60,060 bases of DNA from Cyanobacteriota bacterium (lineage in GTDB: Bacteria; Cyanobacteriota; Cyanobacteriia; Cyanobacteriales; Microcoleaceae). The notes below the pieces were generated by a model, which was not told the DNA's origin, did not search any database, and worked only from the letters and a program-made list of their open reading frames with translations. How positions within the stretch are numbered: the first letter of the stretch is position 1; every line of letters begins with the position of its first letter. This document shows positions 5,230 through 57,531 of this stretch, piece by piece. The translations under genes and the position numbers were made by a program. The stretch is from positions 1 through 60,060 of the forward strand of contig JANYGO010000356.1 in NCBI GenBank assembly GCA_025362325.1. Direction: 5' to 3'.

Positions 5230-5658
5230 CTTTGTTAACACTCCTTAATATTTCACACTTGCGTAGTATAAGATACAACCCTCCCCATAGTAAAGTTTCG
5301 TGAAAAAACTGAGTTGGCTCAGAAGACACTAGCGCCTGCACCACAAGCAAAGTATTGCTGCTCGGAAACCATACCACTGCTAGATTAGTCAAAGGGCAGA
5401 GCAGCCCAACTCAAATAAATGGGTATATCTGTATTTATGTCAAGCCTGGGAGCGGAAATATTTTCAAAAAAGGGCGATCGTCAAGAAAAGATTACCGATC
5501 GGTAAAAAGTCAGATATTGTATATATTGGTCAATGCTTGCTGTTTTGACGACTATCAAAATTTTTAAAACTTGAGACTAGCGTCATTTGCTTGTAGTGAA
5601 AGATGAAACGTTAGCCGAAATTTAAACAAGAAATCCTCCAGCCACCCCATCTCAATTC
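5230..5658. other. Intergenic region between divergent crtR and pyk
   Basis: About 430 bases with no credible gene. It must hold the divergent promoters of crtR and pyk. A palindrome ACCGATCGGT lies near 5493-5502, and an AGGAG precedes crtR. No riboswitch-like structure was recognised. Confidence 0.6.
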
Positions 5659-7531: not shown

Positions 7532-7603
7532 GCCGATGTAGCTCAGTGGTAGAGTAACCGATTCGTAATCGGTCGGTCGCGGGTTCAAATCCCGCCATTG
7601 GCT
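7532..7603 (+). tRNA. tRNA-Thr (anticodon CGU)
   Basis: 72-nt cloverleaf. The acceptor GCCGATG pairs with CATTGGC, the D arm contains GCTC..GAGT, the anticodon stem ACCGA/TCGGT encloses the loop TTCGTAA with anticodon CGT at 7564-7566, and the T arm is GCGGGTTCAAATCCCGC. CCA is not encoded, as usual in cyanobacteria. It decodes ACG. Confidence 0.97.
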
Positions 7604-7656
7604 TTGAGTTTCAGGATTTTTGCGAAAACGAAGCCATTAAATTTAACGGTTAATTA

Positions 7657-46364: not shown

Positions 46365-47111
46365 CTAGATTGTATCGGGATCTATATTTAATTCTCGCAG
46401 TTTCGCGGCCAGGCGATCGGCTCTTTGGGCCTCTTCGTCAGCTCGCCCTGTCTCCCTTTCTGCAACCTCTTCAGGAGTAGGAACCAGCTCTCCTGCTGCT
46501 GTAAAGAAACGCAATTTTCCCCCACAAATTCCCAAACTCAAATCGAGCTGTTGACTCCGCAGATATCCTGATTCATTCGGTGCAATTGGTTGATATTCCC
46601 CATCTACCAAATGAAACCCAGCTAATTCTAAAGTTTCGGGATCGAACCAAAAGTAATCCAGAGTGCGAAAAGTATCTTGATAGAGTTGTTTTTTAAAGTT
46701 TTTATCTATGTTCGCTGTTTTCGGCGACAGGATTTCCAGAATGATATTCGGGTACTTTCCGTCTTCATCCCAAACTACCCAGCTTTTCCTAGTTTTGCGT
46801 TCAGTTCCAAGTACCACAAAAAAGTCTGGGCCTCGAAAGTCTTTCGATTTAAGTTGCTTGGGGCTGTAGTAAATAGTGAGGTTGCCAGCAGCATAGAAGT
46901 CATTTCTATCTCGCCACAACCATTCTAGACATTTGAACAGCAGCATTATTTGTCGGAGATGCAGTTCTGTTTCCACTTGAGGTTCATCACTATATAAATC
47001 GACTGGAGGAACGATAACATTTTCTGGTAGCTCTTGTTCTGGTAGCTCTTGTTCTAGTAGCTCTTGTTCTGGTATTTCTTGGGGAATAGCTAATTCTGCG
47101 GTTGCGGACAT
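46365..47111 (-). CDS. Uma2-family (DUF820) protein with C-terminal coiled-coil tail
   Basis: 248 aa. Central Uma2 domain (GNLTIYYSPKQLKSKDFRGPDFFVV, SWVVWDEDGKYPNIILEILSP, KKQLYQDTFRTLDYFWFDPETLEL) in which the F-R-x-P-D and I-L-E-I-L-S segments carry the PD-(D/E)XK residues. N-terminal ELPEQELPEQELLEQ repeat and C-terminal EEVAERETGRADEEAQRADRL helix are typical of the longer Uma2 type. Function unproved. Confidence 0.88.
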   Translation of the reverse strand: MSATAELAIPQEIPEQELLEQELPEQELPENVIVPPVDLYSDEPQVETELHLRQIMLLFKCLEWLWRDRNDFYAAGNLTIYYSPKQLKSKDFRGPDFFVVLGTERKTRKSWVVWDEDGKYPNIILEILSPKTANIDKNFKKQLYQDTFRTLDYFWFDPETLELAGFHLVDGEYQPIAPNESGYLRSQQLDLSLGICGGKLRFFTAAGELVPTPEEVAERETGRADEEAQRADRLAAKLRELNIDPDTI

Positions 47112-47268: not shown

Positions 47269-48357
47269 TTATTTCCCATCAGCTTCCCTCAGAGCGGCCA
47301 GAATTTCCGGTCGTTTCATGCGCGCCCAGCCCCGTACTTTCCGCTCTTTGCCGATCGCCTTCAAACGCCTTAACGAAAGAATATCGTAGTTTTCCTCCTG
47401 GGGTGGAAACGGCAACTCCAACTGTAACTGCGGTAGCTGAGGCTTCTGATGAGGTTTCGACTGCTTCTTTGGCTGCGTTTTCGGCTGCGTTTTCGGCTGT
47501 ATTTCTGGCTGCATTTCTAAATTAGTCGCGGCGGCTCCCAGTTGGCGGCGGAGCGTTTCGATTTGATTTTTAAGGTCATTTTCTACGTCTTCGAGCGCCT
47601 CCGAAACAAATTGATTAATTGTTTCAACTGCGCGTTCTAATTTTCTGGAAATCAGTTTTTCTAGTTCATCCAACTGTTGAAATGCAGATTCAAGATTCAT
47701 CTCATAAATAACCCCAGATTTAGGAAGGCTATCGCTGCTAGGTTGTTCCATTTTTTTAGCCAATTTATCTACCTTTTTGTCAAATGTTTTTTCAACTTGT
47801 TCGAGCAGACGCTTAATCTGTTCTATTTGATCGCGATCAAAATTCTGCTCATTTAGAGCTTTTACTTGTTTTTTTAGCAGGTCTTCATTTCTTTTAACAG
47901 ATTGTTCTATTTGTTGTGTTAGACTCTCTACCTTTTTTTGAAAGGATAGCTCAAATTGTTGGAATAGAGTCTCAAATTGTGTAGTTTTTTGAGTCGGTTG
48001 GGGAGCTAAATTTGCCATTTCTGCTTGAGCAACAGTTACCTCCTCATCGGTCATTTCAAAAACCCACGCCCACATTTGTTCAATGCCGAGTTCTTTGGCA
48101 ACAATACACCAATCTGAGCCACAGACAACTTCATATTCTTCTTCGTTGCTGTAAGCTTCAGTGGGACGTACAATTAAAGCCATCAAGTTGCTGCCTTGCT
48201 CGATGAGACTTCTCCTGAGAGCTTCCCGGCGTTGGCGGGGAATTTCCCCCCGCTGATGCTCTGGTACGGCAATTTGGGAAGTATAAATTTGACTGTGACT
48301 AATTGGCTTAATCCGCAAATATTCAGCTATTCGGTTTTGATCTTGCGATCGCTCCAT
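47269..48357 (-). CDS. ParB-like protein with long coiled coil and Rho-N/SAP-like tail
   Basis: 362 aa. N-terminal ParB/Srx-like domain (IKPISHSQIYTSQIAVPEHQRGE, IVRPTEAYSNEEEYEVVCGSDWCIVAKELG) with the ParB-type Gly-Asp/Ser turn slightly altered (GSDW for GxRR). Residues 125-300 are coiled coil (FETLFQQFELSFQKKVESL and so on). A basic Pro/Gln linker with repeated QPKTQPK leads to a terminal DILSLRRLKAIGKERKVRGWARMKR domain of Rho-N/LEM-like type, which can bind nucleic acid. It resembles the ParB-like protein at 51324-52250 in plan. Likely the third gene of a partition-like set (inference). Confidence 0.7.
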   Translation of the reverse strand: MERSQDQNRIAEYLRIKPISHSQIYTSQIAVPEHQRGEIPRQRREALRRSLIEQGSNLMALIVRPTEAYSNEEEYEVVCGSDWCIVAKELGIEQMWAWVFEMTDEEVTVAQAEMANLAPQPTQKTTQFETLFQQFELSFQKKVESLTQQIEQSVKRNEDLLKKQVKALNEQNFDRDQIEQIKRLLEQVEKTFDKKVDKLAKKMEQPSSDSLPKSGVIYEMNLESAFQQLDELEKLISRKLERAVETINQFVSEALEDVENDLKNQIETLRRQLGAAATNLEMQPEIQPKTQPKTQPKKQSKPHQKPQLPQLQLELPFPPQEENYDILSLRRLKAIGKERKVRGWARMKRPEILAALREADGK

Positions 48358-49024: not shown

Positions 49025-49507
49025 ATGTTAGCTAGTGTGCTGTGGATTTTATTGATGGGCTTTTTTTCGTGTCAAATTGCCCGTCGCTTAGGTGTTCCAC
49101 CTTTGATTGGGATGATTTTGGTGGGGATAGTTTTAGGGCCACAAGTTAGCGATGTCCTTAGTCCAGAAGTGCTGAAATCGGCGGATAATCTACCAATTGT
49201 GGCAGTGATGATTATCCTGATGAAAGCGGGATTAGGATTAGATCGAGAAAAGCTGACACAGCAGGGAACTGTGGTGCTGCGGTTAGGAGTTTTACCAGCG
49301 GCAATCGAGGCAATTGCGATCGCATTTGTTGCCATGCTAATTTTTAAATTCGACTTTCCCACAGGGTTACTTTTGGGTTGTGTAACTGGCGCAGAATCAC
49401 GCGCTGTAATTGTCCCTGGAATGCTACGACTAAAAAGTTTAGGCTGGGGTGTCACCAAAGGAATTCCCGATGCCATTCTTACGGGTAGTGCCTTATCTGA
49501 TGTTTGA
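49025..49507 (+). pseudogene. Truncated CPA2-family cation/proton antiporter
   Basis: 160 codons from the ATG at 49025 (GGAGAAAGGA 6-15 bases ahead). It starts like a complete CPA2/KefB-type antiporter: ILLMGFFSCQIARRLGVPPLIGMILVGIVLGP, VMIILMKAGLGLDREKL, GCVTGAESRAVIVPGML, DAILTGSALSDV. It then stops where the family would continue (normally about 400 residues). The sequence after the stop has no antiporter character, so about 240 codons are deleted. Antiporters of this family are known partners of fluoride riboswitches. Probably non-functional, although a short membrane protein could be made. Confidence 0.75.
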
Positions 49508-51323: not shown

Positions 51324-52250
51324 TTATGAATATTTGTGCCACTTATCAATTATTTTAATCATTGTTTTGTCGCCTAACCCATCAATACGTTTCACCGCAC
51401 TTGTAAATGACACAAACGGCTGCACCTTTCGTTCTTTGATTATGCTGTCGATCATGGGAGACTTCAAGCCAGCATCTTTAAAATTCGCCAACAATCCAGA
51501 TTTATCGAGAGTATTGAGTGCTTCCAACGCCGACATTGATTCGGAAGTTACGTTTGCAACTTGTGGTATCCTCTCTAGCACCACTTGTTTTTCGGGTGGC
51601 GACTCGGATTTCAACTCATTAATTCTGTTGGCTAACCCAGCTTCAACTAGAGATACTTGTTGTAAAATTCGGTTTTCAACTTCTTGTATACTCTGTGCTA
51701 ACACCTGTTTGTCACGGGCATACTCGGCTTTTAATTCATTAATTTGGTTTTCAAACTGAGCTTCAAGATTTGTTAGCCGCTGTTCTAAACTGGATGATGA
51801 TTGAGGAGTTTCATTTTCACAGGAATTAGGGACTTCGACCAAAGAAACCGGGTTTTTTATTGAATCTGCGGGCTGCGACGAAGTATTTTCGTCAAAAAAC
51901 TCGGTTTCTGGACTCTCAACTAAATTGTCAGTTTTGGCTGATTTCCTCAGCGCTTGAACTTGCTCTAAAAGCAGTCCTTCATTTTCTGGTTCAAGAATAA
52001 ATGCTCCGATTGTCTCGCCTTTCATAGGGTTGATTTCCCTGGCTTTCGCCGCAGCGTAGTATTCAAAGTCTCCGTCTACTATTTCGTAGGCATCCATACC
52101 GTTGCGGCGGAGAATTATGGGGTTGATCAATCCTCCTAATTCTAAAATTAGTCTGGCTAATTTCTCCAAATCCGGCTCGGAAAAATTGGAACGGGGCACT
52201 GTGCAAGTAATTCTTTTCACTGCAACCAGTGACGGAAATAATTTTTTCAT
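51324..52250 (-). CDS. ParB/Spo0J-like protein with coiled coil and C-terminal HhH
   Basis: 308 aa. N-terminal ParB-like domain ([47 protein letters not shown]) with G-D-F-E-Y in place of the usual GERR CTP-binding turn, a coiled-coil middle ([20 protein letters not shown] and two further copies), and a C-terminal helix-hairpin-helix ([21 protein letters not shown]). Its ATG overlaps the stop of the nuclease-ParA gene (ATGA, 52247-52250), so the two are translationally coupled. A DNA-binding centromere-type role is inferred. Confidence 0.82.
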
Positions 52251-53719
52251 AAGTTTTTACCTATTTTTTCCAAAACTTCCTCGGCTAACATTTCAAATTC
52301 TTGGGAGGCGATGGAATCTGGCTTAAAGTCGAGCACTGAAATCGGATCGGCGATTTCCATATCTCCCACCATTTGCATTTGTTCTGCACACTTTGCTAAA
52401 TCGTCTCTCTCGTAAATTACGCTGTCCATGATTTCCAGGCCGTAGCGTTTGGGAATTGCCTCCCTCCGCTTGGGCAAACTGTACTGTACAAATTTAGGAT
52501 TAGGTGAGATTTTGCAAGGGAGAACGCCTAAAATTGCGATCGGTTGTTTGCCGATTTGTTTTTTGAATCCATTGACTTTTTTAATAAAATCCTTGACATT
52601 AATCAGTCCTTGATTGGCAAAAGGTTTTAAGTCAGAAGGAATAATTAAATAATCTGCCGTAATCAGGGCAATTCTGGCGTAAAGATTCAAAGAGGGCGGC
52701 GTATCGATCAGTACAATATCATATTTATCCTGTACTTCTGCTAGTTTGTGAATTAAAATCAGTCGGCTGTAATCTAGGTTGTTGAATTCTGTTTCATATT
52801 GCATTAAATCAATATGGGAAGGAATCACATCAATTGCGGGATTGCAAAAATTCGATTTGCGAGCTACATCTGCGATCGAATAAAATTCTTCTGATTGCAA
52901 AACGTGAAGAATATTGCTATCTTTCAAATCGTCTTGTTCTTCATCCTGAAATTTTACCAAACCAGTCGCAAAGGTGGTATTTGCCTGACTGTCTAAGTCT
53001 ATGACTAGGACTCTTTTACCTTGCTTGCTCAGGGCTGCGGCTAAATTGACTACTGTTGTAGTTTTGCCAACGCCGCCTTTGTTGTGGTAAACTGCAATGA
53101 TTTTCATAGTGTTTTCTCTTGTTTGGGGAACGATTAAATCAGGTATTTGTTCCGGTTCTGAGATTTGACTTGGCTCAGGTTCTGCGGTGGCGGGATTGTT
53201 TTGTTGTACTGGTATTTCGCTAATTAACTCAGGAATAACTAAATTAAGTTTACTATCTTCCAGTTCCAGATTGTCTTGATCTTTTACAAGATTTAAACTA
53301 TCTCTGCCAATTAAAGCGATCATTTCATCAATTTTCGTTTCAATATCTTGTCCGGCGCACTGAAATAATAGCTTAATATCATCGGCGACTATAGCGTAGA
53401 TTCTAATTTCTTTACCGTTAGTTATGAGTCCGTAGCGGATGCTTAAACTTGTTAAGTAACGCTTTAGTTTCCGCAGATGGCGGTCTAATTTTTCTTTCGG
53501 ATGTTTTGCTTCCATGACTAAACTCATGGGCGAGTTTACATCGAGAACTATGGGGATAACTTGGGTAGCAAAGGAGAGGAAGTCTAGGCGAATATTTCCA
53601 AAGGCGATTTCTTGGTGCCAAGTGTCGGGGGTATAGCCCAGTTTTGGCAACAAATAACTGACAATGAGTTTGCTTTCTACTTCGCTTTCGTTGCGACAGT
53701 TATTGGGATTGAAAGCCAT
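52247..53719 (-). CDS. parA: HsdR-N (PD-(D/E)XK) nuclease domain fused to ParA ATPase
   Basis: 490 aa. Residues 10-120 match the type I restriction R-subunit N-terminal domain: [20 protein letters not shown], Asp46 in GNIRLDF, Glu70 and Lys72 in LVMEAKHP, and [15 protein letters not shown]. Residues 120-204 are an acidic Pro-rich linker. From 205 a ParA/MinD-like domain follows: deviant Walker [11 protein letters not shown] (213-222), [14 protein letters not shown], and [12 protein letters not shown]. An internal ATG at 53107 precedes the ParA part, so a stand-alone ParA could also be made. Such fusion is unusual: partition ATPases rarely carry nuclease domains. The downstream ParB-like gene overlaps its stop. 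Confidence 0.85.
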
Positions 53720-56743: not shown

Positions 56744-56904
56744 AAGAAGGAAGAGGGAACAGGGAAGAAGAAAGAAGGAAGAAGGAAGAAATTTTCTTGT
56801 ATAACTGAAAAGTCTTTGTGATCTTCTCTCTCTTCTCTTCCTCTGCGTCCTCTGCGCCCTCTGCGGTTCAGAAAAATCTTATTGAGGATTTAGGAACAAA
56901 GATC
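56744..56904. repeat. GAAGGAAGAAGGAAG tract and TCTGCGNCCTCTGCG repeat
   Basis: Polypurine GAAGGAAGAAGGAAGAAA at 56770-56789, then CTCTGCGTCCTCTGCGCCCT + CTGCGGTTCAG at 56840-56872, a common dispersed intergenic sequence in filamentous cyanobacteria (a reverse relative at 37860-37880). Confidence 0.75.
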
Positions 56905-57531
56905 ATGGTTCAATCACCTCCAAAACTTCTAACTATTGATGAATTTATTGCTAACTACGGCGACAGCGAGCGTTACGAACTAATCGATGGTGAATTAACG
57001 GAAATGGAACCAACAGGGCCACACGAACAAGTATCCGCCTTTCTCGGACGCAAACTGAATGTAGAAATTGACCGTCTGGATTTACCATATTTTATTCCCC
57101 CTCGCTGTCTCATCAAACTATTAGGAACAACAACAGCCTTTCGCCCGGATGTGCTGGTATTAGATCAAACTCGACTGATTAATGAGCCATTGTGGCAACA
57201 AGAACCTGTAATTACATCGGGAAACTCGATTAAACTAATCGCTGAAGTCGTGAGTACCAATTGGTCGAACGACTATGCCCGCAAAGTTGAAGATTACGCC
57301 TTGCTAGGAATTCCTGAGTATTGGATTGTTGATTATTTGGGGATTGGCGGCAGAGAATATATTGGCAAACCGAAACAGCCCACAATTACAGTTTGTACGC
57401 TGCAAGAAGATGAGTATCAAAGACAGTTGTTTCAAAAGGGCGATCGACTAATTTCGTCAATTTTCCCAGATTTACAGCTAACCGCCCAACAAATCTTTGC
57501 AGCCAGTGGGATTTTTAATATAACGGTTTGA
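56905..57531 (+). CDS. Uma2-family (DUF820) putative nuclease
   Basis: 208 aa from the ATG at 56905 (MVQSPPKLLTIDEFI); upstream codons derive from a dispersed repeat and are not part of the gene. Seen: YELIDGELTEMEPTGPHEQV, RPDVLVLD, LIAEVVSTNWSNDYARKVEDYALLGIPEYWIVD and YQRQLFQKGDRLIS, with the E..V and D..K residues of the PD-(D/E)XK fold. The stop codon lies within a palindromic repeat that forms a terminator. Confidence 0.92.
   Translation: MVQSPPKLLTIDEFIANYGDSERYELIDGELTEMEPTGPHEQVSAFLGRKLNVEIDRLDLPYFIPPRCLIKLLGTTTAFRPDVLVLDQTRLINEPLWQQEPVITSGNSIKLIAEVVSTNWSNDYARKVEDYALLGIPEYWIVDYLGIGGREYIGKPKQPTITVCTLQEDEYQRQLFQKGDRLISSIFPDLQLTAQQIFAASGIFNITV

Follow-up and report, generated by a model that had tools for sequence, protein, structure and literature searches.

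ParA proteins are known as movers of DNA and organelles. What is one to make, then, of a ParA ATPase that carries a restriction-type nuclease domain at its N-terminus? The question is raised by a reading frame in a 60,060-nucleotide stretch of cyanobacterial DNA (the window), where a first-pass annotation had joined an HsdR-type PD-(D/E)XK domain to a complete ParA and had proposed a second, shorter product from an internal start. Here, we relate this frame and the gene downstream of it to their relatives in cyanobacteria and weigh what the pair may do.

Architecture and conservation of the fusion

The central claim, a nuclease-type domain and a ParA in one frame, was borne out, and the frame is open throughout. 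Its features are:

52247-53719, minus strand: nuclease-ParA fusion gene of group A (HsdR-type PD-(D/E)XK domain, linker and ParA ATPase), 490 aa, start ATG
53294-53719, minus strand: N-terminal PD-(D/E)XK domain, residues 1-142 (Pfam, model, Foldseek, conservation, dN/dS)
53582-53584, 53510-53512 and 53504-53506, minus strand: putative catalytic residues D46, E70 and K72
53108-53293, minus strand: variable linker, residues 143-204 (linker lengths, dN/dS)
53105-53107, minus strand: internal ATG at residue 205, from which ParA alone could start (five ParA-only orthologues start there)
52250-53107, minus strand: ParA ATPase domain, residues 205-490 (Pfam, alignment)
53057-53080, minus strand: deviant Walker A KGGVGKTT of the ParA domain

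The motifs RLDF, EAK and [11 protein letters not shown] lie where they had been placed. Pfam finds HSDR_N_2 at residues 17-113 (E 1.9e-5; 25.1 bits for a cut-off of 25), and an HSDR_N match (E 2.6e-4) falls below that family's cut-off. The ParA part is complete, as had been claimed, with AAA_31 at residues 205-384 (E 2e-57); KGGVGKTT in the K214-T221 region is invariant in 55/55 group A proteins, as are D241, D243 and D339, and the deviant Walker A with its signature lysine and Walker B are both present. The linker ranges from about 21 to 141 aa in the same 55 proteins.

Could the join at about residue 200 be an assembly artefact? This was ruled out, as the fused frame runs uninterrupted in 27 of 29 genomes of the window's genus (24 with a single match, 3 with two matches in one open frame). 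In the other two, G019 (an 86% complete genome) has a partial copy and G015 (74% complete) has none. Fused copies sit within single or very large contigs in several cases (G013, G037, G038, G044, G045), and frameshifted or partial copies occur in a few genomes. Within the genus the group A fusion is near-universal and syntenic, with shared neighbours. Both the architecture and its conservation are firm.

The nuclease-type domain

An AlphaFold2 model built from 32 aligned N-domains (pLDDT 87.4) runs through a helix, three strands, a helix and then further strands, the order of a PD-(D/E)XK core of the HsdR_N type. Of the putative catalytic residues, D46 falls on the second strand; the third strand carries E70 close to its end, and K72 follows directly after it. 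The top PDB fold match by Foldseek is the HsdR fragment 3h1t (probability 1.00, E 5e-3, TM 0.50 by query), followed by EcoR124I HsdR chains. All PDB fold matches fell short of E 0.001, and the fold is therefore called on the model, the Pfam match and the motif jointly; together, AlphaFold2 and Foldseek, used here in place of HHpred, uphold the fold that had been proposed. The single PDB sequence-profile match, 7ue2, going by its name a designed repeat protein, was judged spurious.

The proposed D...ExK site is likewise confirmed. An alignment of 55 group A proteins, with that of the window among them, shows E70 in all 55 and D46 and K72 in 54 each. The lone exception, L073, has no homologous N-domain; all 54 proteins with the domain retain the three residues. 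Their equivalents are all kept in 5/5 group B proteins checked, whose N-domains are 26-29% identical. In 45 pairs from 10 sequences of the Microcoleus clade, median dN/dS (NG86) is 0.128 for the N-domain, 0.116 for ParA and 0.498 for the linker. Selection on the nuclease domain is thus about as strong as on ParA. Taken together, the fold and the retained residues suggest a domain that would cut DNA. A relic, or a pure DNA-binding fold that does not cut, would be in keeping with the lack of the domain in ParA-only relatives and with the frameshifted or partial copies; set against the near-invariance of D, E and K and a dN/dS of 0.128, we hold that reading to be very improbable.

A possible internal start

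The in-frame ATG at 53107, proposed as a start for ParA alone, is indeed present as residue 205, and a start codon is kept there in all 55 group A proteins (ATG in 53, GTG in 2). Group B has an ATG one codon later in 5/5, and group D has a Met at the position in 0/11. As to a ribosome site, anti-Shine-Dalgarno pairing in the 28 non-Microcoleus sequences is -3.63 vs -1.82 kcal/mol, with none of 300 synonymous shuffles as strong, and no such signal is present in the 27 Microcoleus-clade sequences, the window's among them (75/300 shuffles as strong), a split chosen after an earlier test with in-gene windows over all group A had given no signal, and made on related sequences that are not independent. 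For the five group B sequences, too, 0/300 synonymous shuffles match the upstream ribosome-site signal. The proposal is therefore supported by the conserved codon and by the signal outside Microcoleus, and by no such signal in the window's own clade. On this pattern the gene may give two protein forms, a long fusion and a short ParA.

Distribution and fusion groups

In a phylum sample of 386 genomes, the group A protein finds a match in 68 at E 1e-25 and group D in 43 at E 1e-30, with 26 in both lists and 85 in either one, counts that take in ParA-only and broken copies. The cyanobacterial fusions form groups A, B and D, and perhaps a fourth type (L149), whose N-domain looks PD...ExK-like by eye only and in which Pfam finds no domain. 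On the tree, two further fusions, L153 and L154, cluster with group B. A tree test does not reject a common clade for A, B, C and D (p-AU 0.24), nor is such a clade demonstrated.

Group D consists of ParAs of about 455 aa with a different N-domain. Their identity as ordinary N-extended ParAs was considered and rejected, as they proved to be another nuclease-ParA group. D56, E80, K82 and Q101 are invariant in 13/13, and profile comparison with the group A N-domain (probability 97.6, E 3.5e-12) sets D, E and K in register; judged by these profiles, group D is a homologous nuclease-ParA fusion. Pfam is weak on single group D proteins (HSDR_N_2 at E 0.016 in L002, none in L139). Unlike group A, group D is patchy, occurring in 29/61 family genomes and in 10/29 genomes of the window's genus. 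The window's own genome holds one such second fusion, at L002:1138-2517 (contig C174), with its own ParB-like partner.

Five ParA-only orthologues have the internal start codon of the fusion as their first codon and sit inside group A at three places on the tree, from which the nuclease would have been lost about three times within the group. The starred branches force three losses on the first tree, which left out seven plain ParAs, and only two on the later tree that included them; another analysis also gives three. Two other arrangements were seen. At L109:6274-7845, a group A-like ParA is fused to an apparent SF1 helicase end (by eye), without an HsdR-type domain, and a nuclease-like gene lies upstream of the frame. 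In several relatives (L047, L092, L095, L096, L097, L100, L101, L103), a divergent plain ParA of 209-313 aa as called stands just upstream of the fusion or ParA-only gene.

The ParB-like partner

ParB-like proteins had been placed downstream of the fusion by the first-pass annotation, and the adjacent gene agrees with this:

51324-52250, minus strand: ParB-like partner, type 1, 308 aa, its start overlapping the fusion stop (ATGA)
51924-52250, minus strand: ParB/Srx-fold domain, residues 1-109 (ParB_N E 2.9e-7; Noc/ParB fold matches)
51606-51797, minus strand: long helix, residues 152-215, probable coiled coil (model)
51330-51530, minus strand: C-terminal five-helix HhH-like module, residues 241-307 (model, sequence pattern)

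Residues 1-109 fold like ParB/Noc (Foldseek: 7nfu at E 3.8e-5, 6sdk, 7bnk). Beyond them, the model passes through disorder and one long helix to a helical C-terminal module; a central HTH is found neither in the model nor among Pfam families. The HhH reading of the C-terminus comes from sequence pattern, the Pfam match to DUF655 (E 0.0057) being below cut-off.

Of the 70 loci that bear an A, B or ParA-only form, 68 have a ParB-like gene downstream (L044 and L091 appear to be one contig). The two genes overlap in 37 loci, are 0-20 nt apart in 28 and farther apart in 3; the loci without a partner call are L101, where the next gene was not clustered, and L130, at a contig end. Because the nuclease-free relatives retain this adaptor, the nuclease is not always needed. 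Group D fusions have a ParB-like gene downstream in 11/11, and a similar gene follows in 13 of 14 loci examined (the 11 of group D, L149, L153 and L154); at L153, a group B-like fusion, no adaptor is adjacent within the stretch seen. The N-halves of type 1, type 2 and group D partners align mutually by profile (probabilities 91.5 to 94.7, E 9e-7 to 6e-8), type 2 at 91.5 and group D at 93.9 against the window partner, and Pfam ParB_N in these two is below cut-off or absent. The C-termini vary, with Rho_N/SAP in some and an HhH-like look in others, in a regular-expression classing that leaves 28/68 partners in no class. These C-terminal modules are candidates for DNA binding.

GERR is the CTP motif of ParB. 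By regular expression, a GERR-like motif and LG[RK]GL are both absent from 68/68 A/B/C partners; LG-R/K-GL is given as the ParA-binding motif of ParB in the accessible part of a survey of the ParB-CTPase fold (PMC12704722).

An intact ParA with a ParB-fold partner would fit partition or positioning of the chromosome or another cargo, with the PD-(D/E)XK domain serving for DNA binding or rare processing, such as resolving linked copies in polyploid cells, and not for cutting foreign DNA. Cyanobacteria are often polyploid. The 27/29 intact copies with shared neighbours and the persistence of ParA-only orthologues together with their partner speak for such a role. So does the scarcity of another ParB: TIGR00180 finds nothing in the window's genome and passes its cut-off in only 2 of 12 genus genomes, although matches at E 0.001, several being orphan type-2 genes, occur in 10/12. 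Partition is, however, less in keeping with the retention of D, E and K across groups A, B and D, with the lack of an HTH in the window partner's model and of the CTP motif in 68/68 A/B/C partners, or with the patchiness of group D and the exchange of cassettes described below. Further, the module is an extra on plasmids. Two Nostoc plasmids with the group D pair also bear ParM/StbA, and one has two ParA-ParB pairs besides (portions of 30.6 of 35.7 kb and 50.0 of 55.1 kb examined). These partition genes share the plasmid with the group D pair and are not adjacent to it, and because they are there the pair is taken as an addition. All in all, we regard partition as a possible but doubtful explanation.

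Matched types and cassette exchange

Fusion and adaptor types agree in all 57 pairs of groups A and B: the 46 fusions of group A go with type 1 and the 11 of group B with type 2, the adaptor types being defined by sequence patterns drawn up after the sequences were read. All 11 partnered loci whose frame has no N-domain match (ParA-only, broken, or L109) also have a type 1 partner. Within one genus, L084 (group A) and L077 (group B) are 92.8% identical until 33 nt before the L084 fusion, and identity returns at 84.9%, 339 nt past the fusion stop, in the partner gene beyond its ParB-fold half. Consistent with this, the C-termini of the two partners are 76% identical and their N-halves have no match. 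As read from this alignment, the fusion and the ParB-fold half of its partner are replaced as one between near-identical flanks. In two other lineages, represented by the pairs L083/L076 (flanks 96% and 94%) and L116/L122 (flanks 93% and 85%), the whole operon and some flanking sequence are replaced. These comparisons indicate that the module can be swapped as a unit between genomes.

Around the L084 operon lie 52-nt inverted repeats (96%; 5233-5315 and 7555-7610), built of short GAGTCCT..AGGACTC palindromes, and similar repeats flank the L077 operon; around the window's operon none were found. The L084 repeats may help cassette exchange. About 3 kb downstream of the window's group A operon stands one more feature:

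47269-48357, minus strand: orphan type-2 ParB-like gene, 362 aa, of the kind that partners group B fusions, with a weak Rho_N match at its end

This orphan partner points to a group B cassette having formerly occupied the site. Elsewhere near the operon, two genes of the Uma2 family (putative restriction endonucleases) lie at 46365-47111 and 56818-57531 (Pfam), and a 160-aa frame at 49025-49507, which covers just the beginning of a Na/H exchanger domain, is probably a truncated gene.

Exchange of this kind would also fit defence, in which plasmid or phage DNA entering the cell would be recognised by the pair and cut by the fused nuclease, with diversity maintained through allele exchange as in hsd loci. 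The HsdR type of the nuclease, the substitution of A and B cassettes for each other between similar flanks, and the patchy occurrence of group D, also on mobilizable plasmids, all favour it, as do the group D loci L138, L143 and L144, which lie beside toxin-antitoxin-, DNA methylase- or transposon-like genes (by eye). Yet the pair has no methylase or helicase (Pfam), and SF2 helicase, HsdM and HsdS were found in none of fusion, partner and six other scanned window proteins. No PADLOC model covers both domains of the fusion; there are only partial matches, the best being PDC-M28B at residues 200-243, with mad2 at 41-107 (E 0.0054). Near-universality in the window's genus, and about three losses of the nuclease with the rest retained, weigh against defence as well. 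We therefore consider plain defence improbable.

Two other identities were tried and rejected. As a plasmid partition gene, the fusion found no counterpart covering 80% of its length among the best 5000 plasmid records; as to phage origin, a scan of 50,697 phage records with the N-domain turned up 2 matches, both weak and partial. On plasmids, the N-domain of group A finds 3 partial matches, in Thermus and Halobaculum, and that of group D matches two plasmids of Nostoc UHCC 0870. In viral contigs, a search for close relatives with one group A and one group D query found none.

Relation to known systems

With ParABS (ParA/Soj; ParB/Spo0J/Noc), the module shares the ParA Walker motifs and a coupled downstream gene with a ParB/Noc-fold N-terminal domain. 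It differs in the nuclease domain borne by its ParA, in a partner whose model in the window lacks the central HTH, in the missing GERR-like and LG[RK]GL motifs noted above, and in partner C-termini that are HhH-like, SAP/Rho_N-like or other. With the N-terminal nuclease domain of type I restriction HsdR, it shares the fold and the D...ExK residues, 3h1t being the best PDB match, whereas ParA takes the place of the helicase motor and the operon has no HsdM or HsdS. The ParATS system of SCP2, a CTP-independent ParABS-like system in the accessible text of its report, is similar in pairing a ParA-type protein with a CTP-independent ParB-like partner, and different in that the same text names no nuclease, a comparison made by description only (PMC12260392).

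The ParB-CTPase fold survey, in its accessible part, describes ParB-fold proteins fused to other domains, HNH included, of which only ParB-DUF3850 is consistently coencoded with parA, and that part does not mention a ParA-nuclease fusion (PMC12704722). MinD/ParA-like domains, predicted to be inactive, have been reported as effectors in conflict systems, according to the accessible portion of another paper (PMC7159879). The literature searched, which took in few subscription papers, contained no recognisable description of a nuclease-ParA fusion, an absence that is not thereby proven. The fusion with its partner looks like an undescribed kind of DNA-handling system.

A proposed mechanism

Our preferred reading, put forward tentatively and as somewhat short of probable, is a two-gene module of an ATP-switched, ParA-positioned nuclease, made in a long and a short form, and a ParB-fold adaptor, which together would survey or maintain DNA. 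We rank it first, partition second and plain defence third. The ParA sandwich dimer is an already known ParA state. We infer that, on ATP binding, the ParA halves would form such a dimer on DNA, upon which two PD-(D/E)XK domains would meet and cutting would be armed. The ParB-fold half of the adaptor would engage the fusion and set ATP turnover, and its exchangeable C-terminal module, whether HhH-like, SAP/Rho_N-like or another, would tie it to DNA. A short, nuclease-free ParA from the internal start could enter mixed dimers or take a sole positioning role, and cutting would thereby be limited; in about three lineages such a ParA would be the only form left. Rather than ordinary partition, the likely use would be to survey DNA or keep it up, whether by acting on foreign or damaged DNA or by maintaining copies of the chromosome.

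Counted for the ATP-switched nuclease are the catalytic residues kept on an HsdR fold, purifying selection, the pairing with an adaptor of matching type, the cassette swap, the homologous fusion of group D, the conserved internal start codon with its ribosome-site signal outside Microcoleus and in group B, the ParA-only forms within group A, and the status of the group D pair as an extra on plasmids. Against it we count L153 without an adaptor, the weak Foldseek E of the N-domain (5e-3), the lack of a close phage or viral match and of a PADLOC model, the missing ribosome-site signal in Microcoleus, the adaptor kept by nuclease-free relatives, and the near-universal, syntenic occurrence of group A in its genus, which suits housekeeping better than defence. 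The hsd specificity loci are exchanged as alleles. A broader claim, that the ParA cycle is both switch and locator of an HsdR-type nuclease with armed (long) and unarmed (short) forms from one gene, and that matched fusion and adaptor cassettes are likewise exchanged as alleles in a fixed chromosomal slot, making this an undescribed class found across the cyanobacteria in three groups or more, with a fourth in doubt, is in our view conceivable and on balance unlikely.

In conclusion, a ParA that bears a conserved nuclease-type domain and is matched to a ParB-fold protein without the CTP motif would connect the positioning of DNA with its cutting. As 10 of 12 sampled genus genomes have no ParB over the TIGR00180 cut-off, this bears on the upkeep of chromosome copies and the exclusion of foreign DNA in these cyanobacteria, and the parts of the module lend themselves to direct testing, given the cassette swaps that occur in nature and the relatives without the nuclease.
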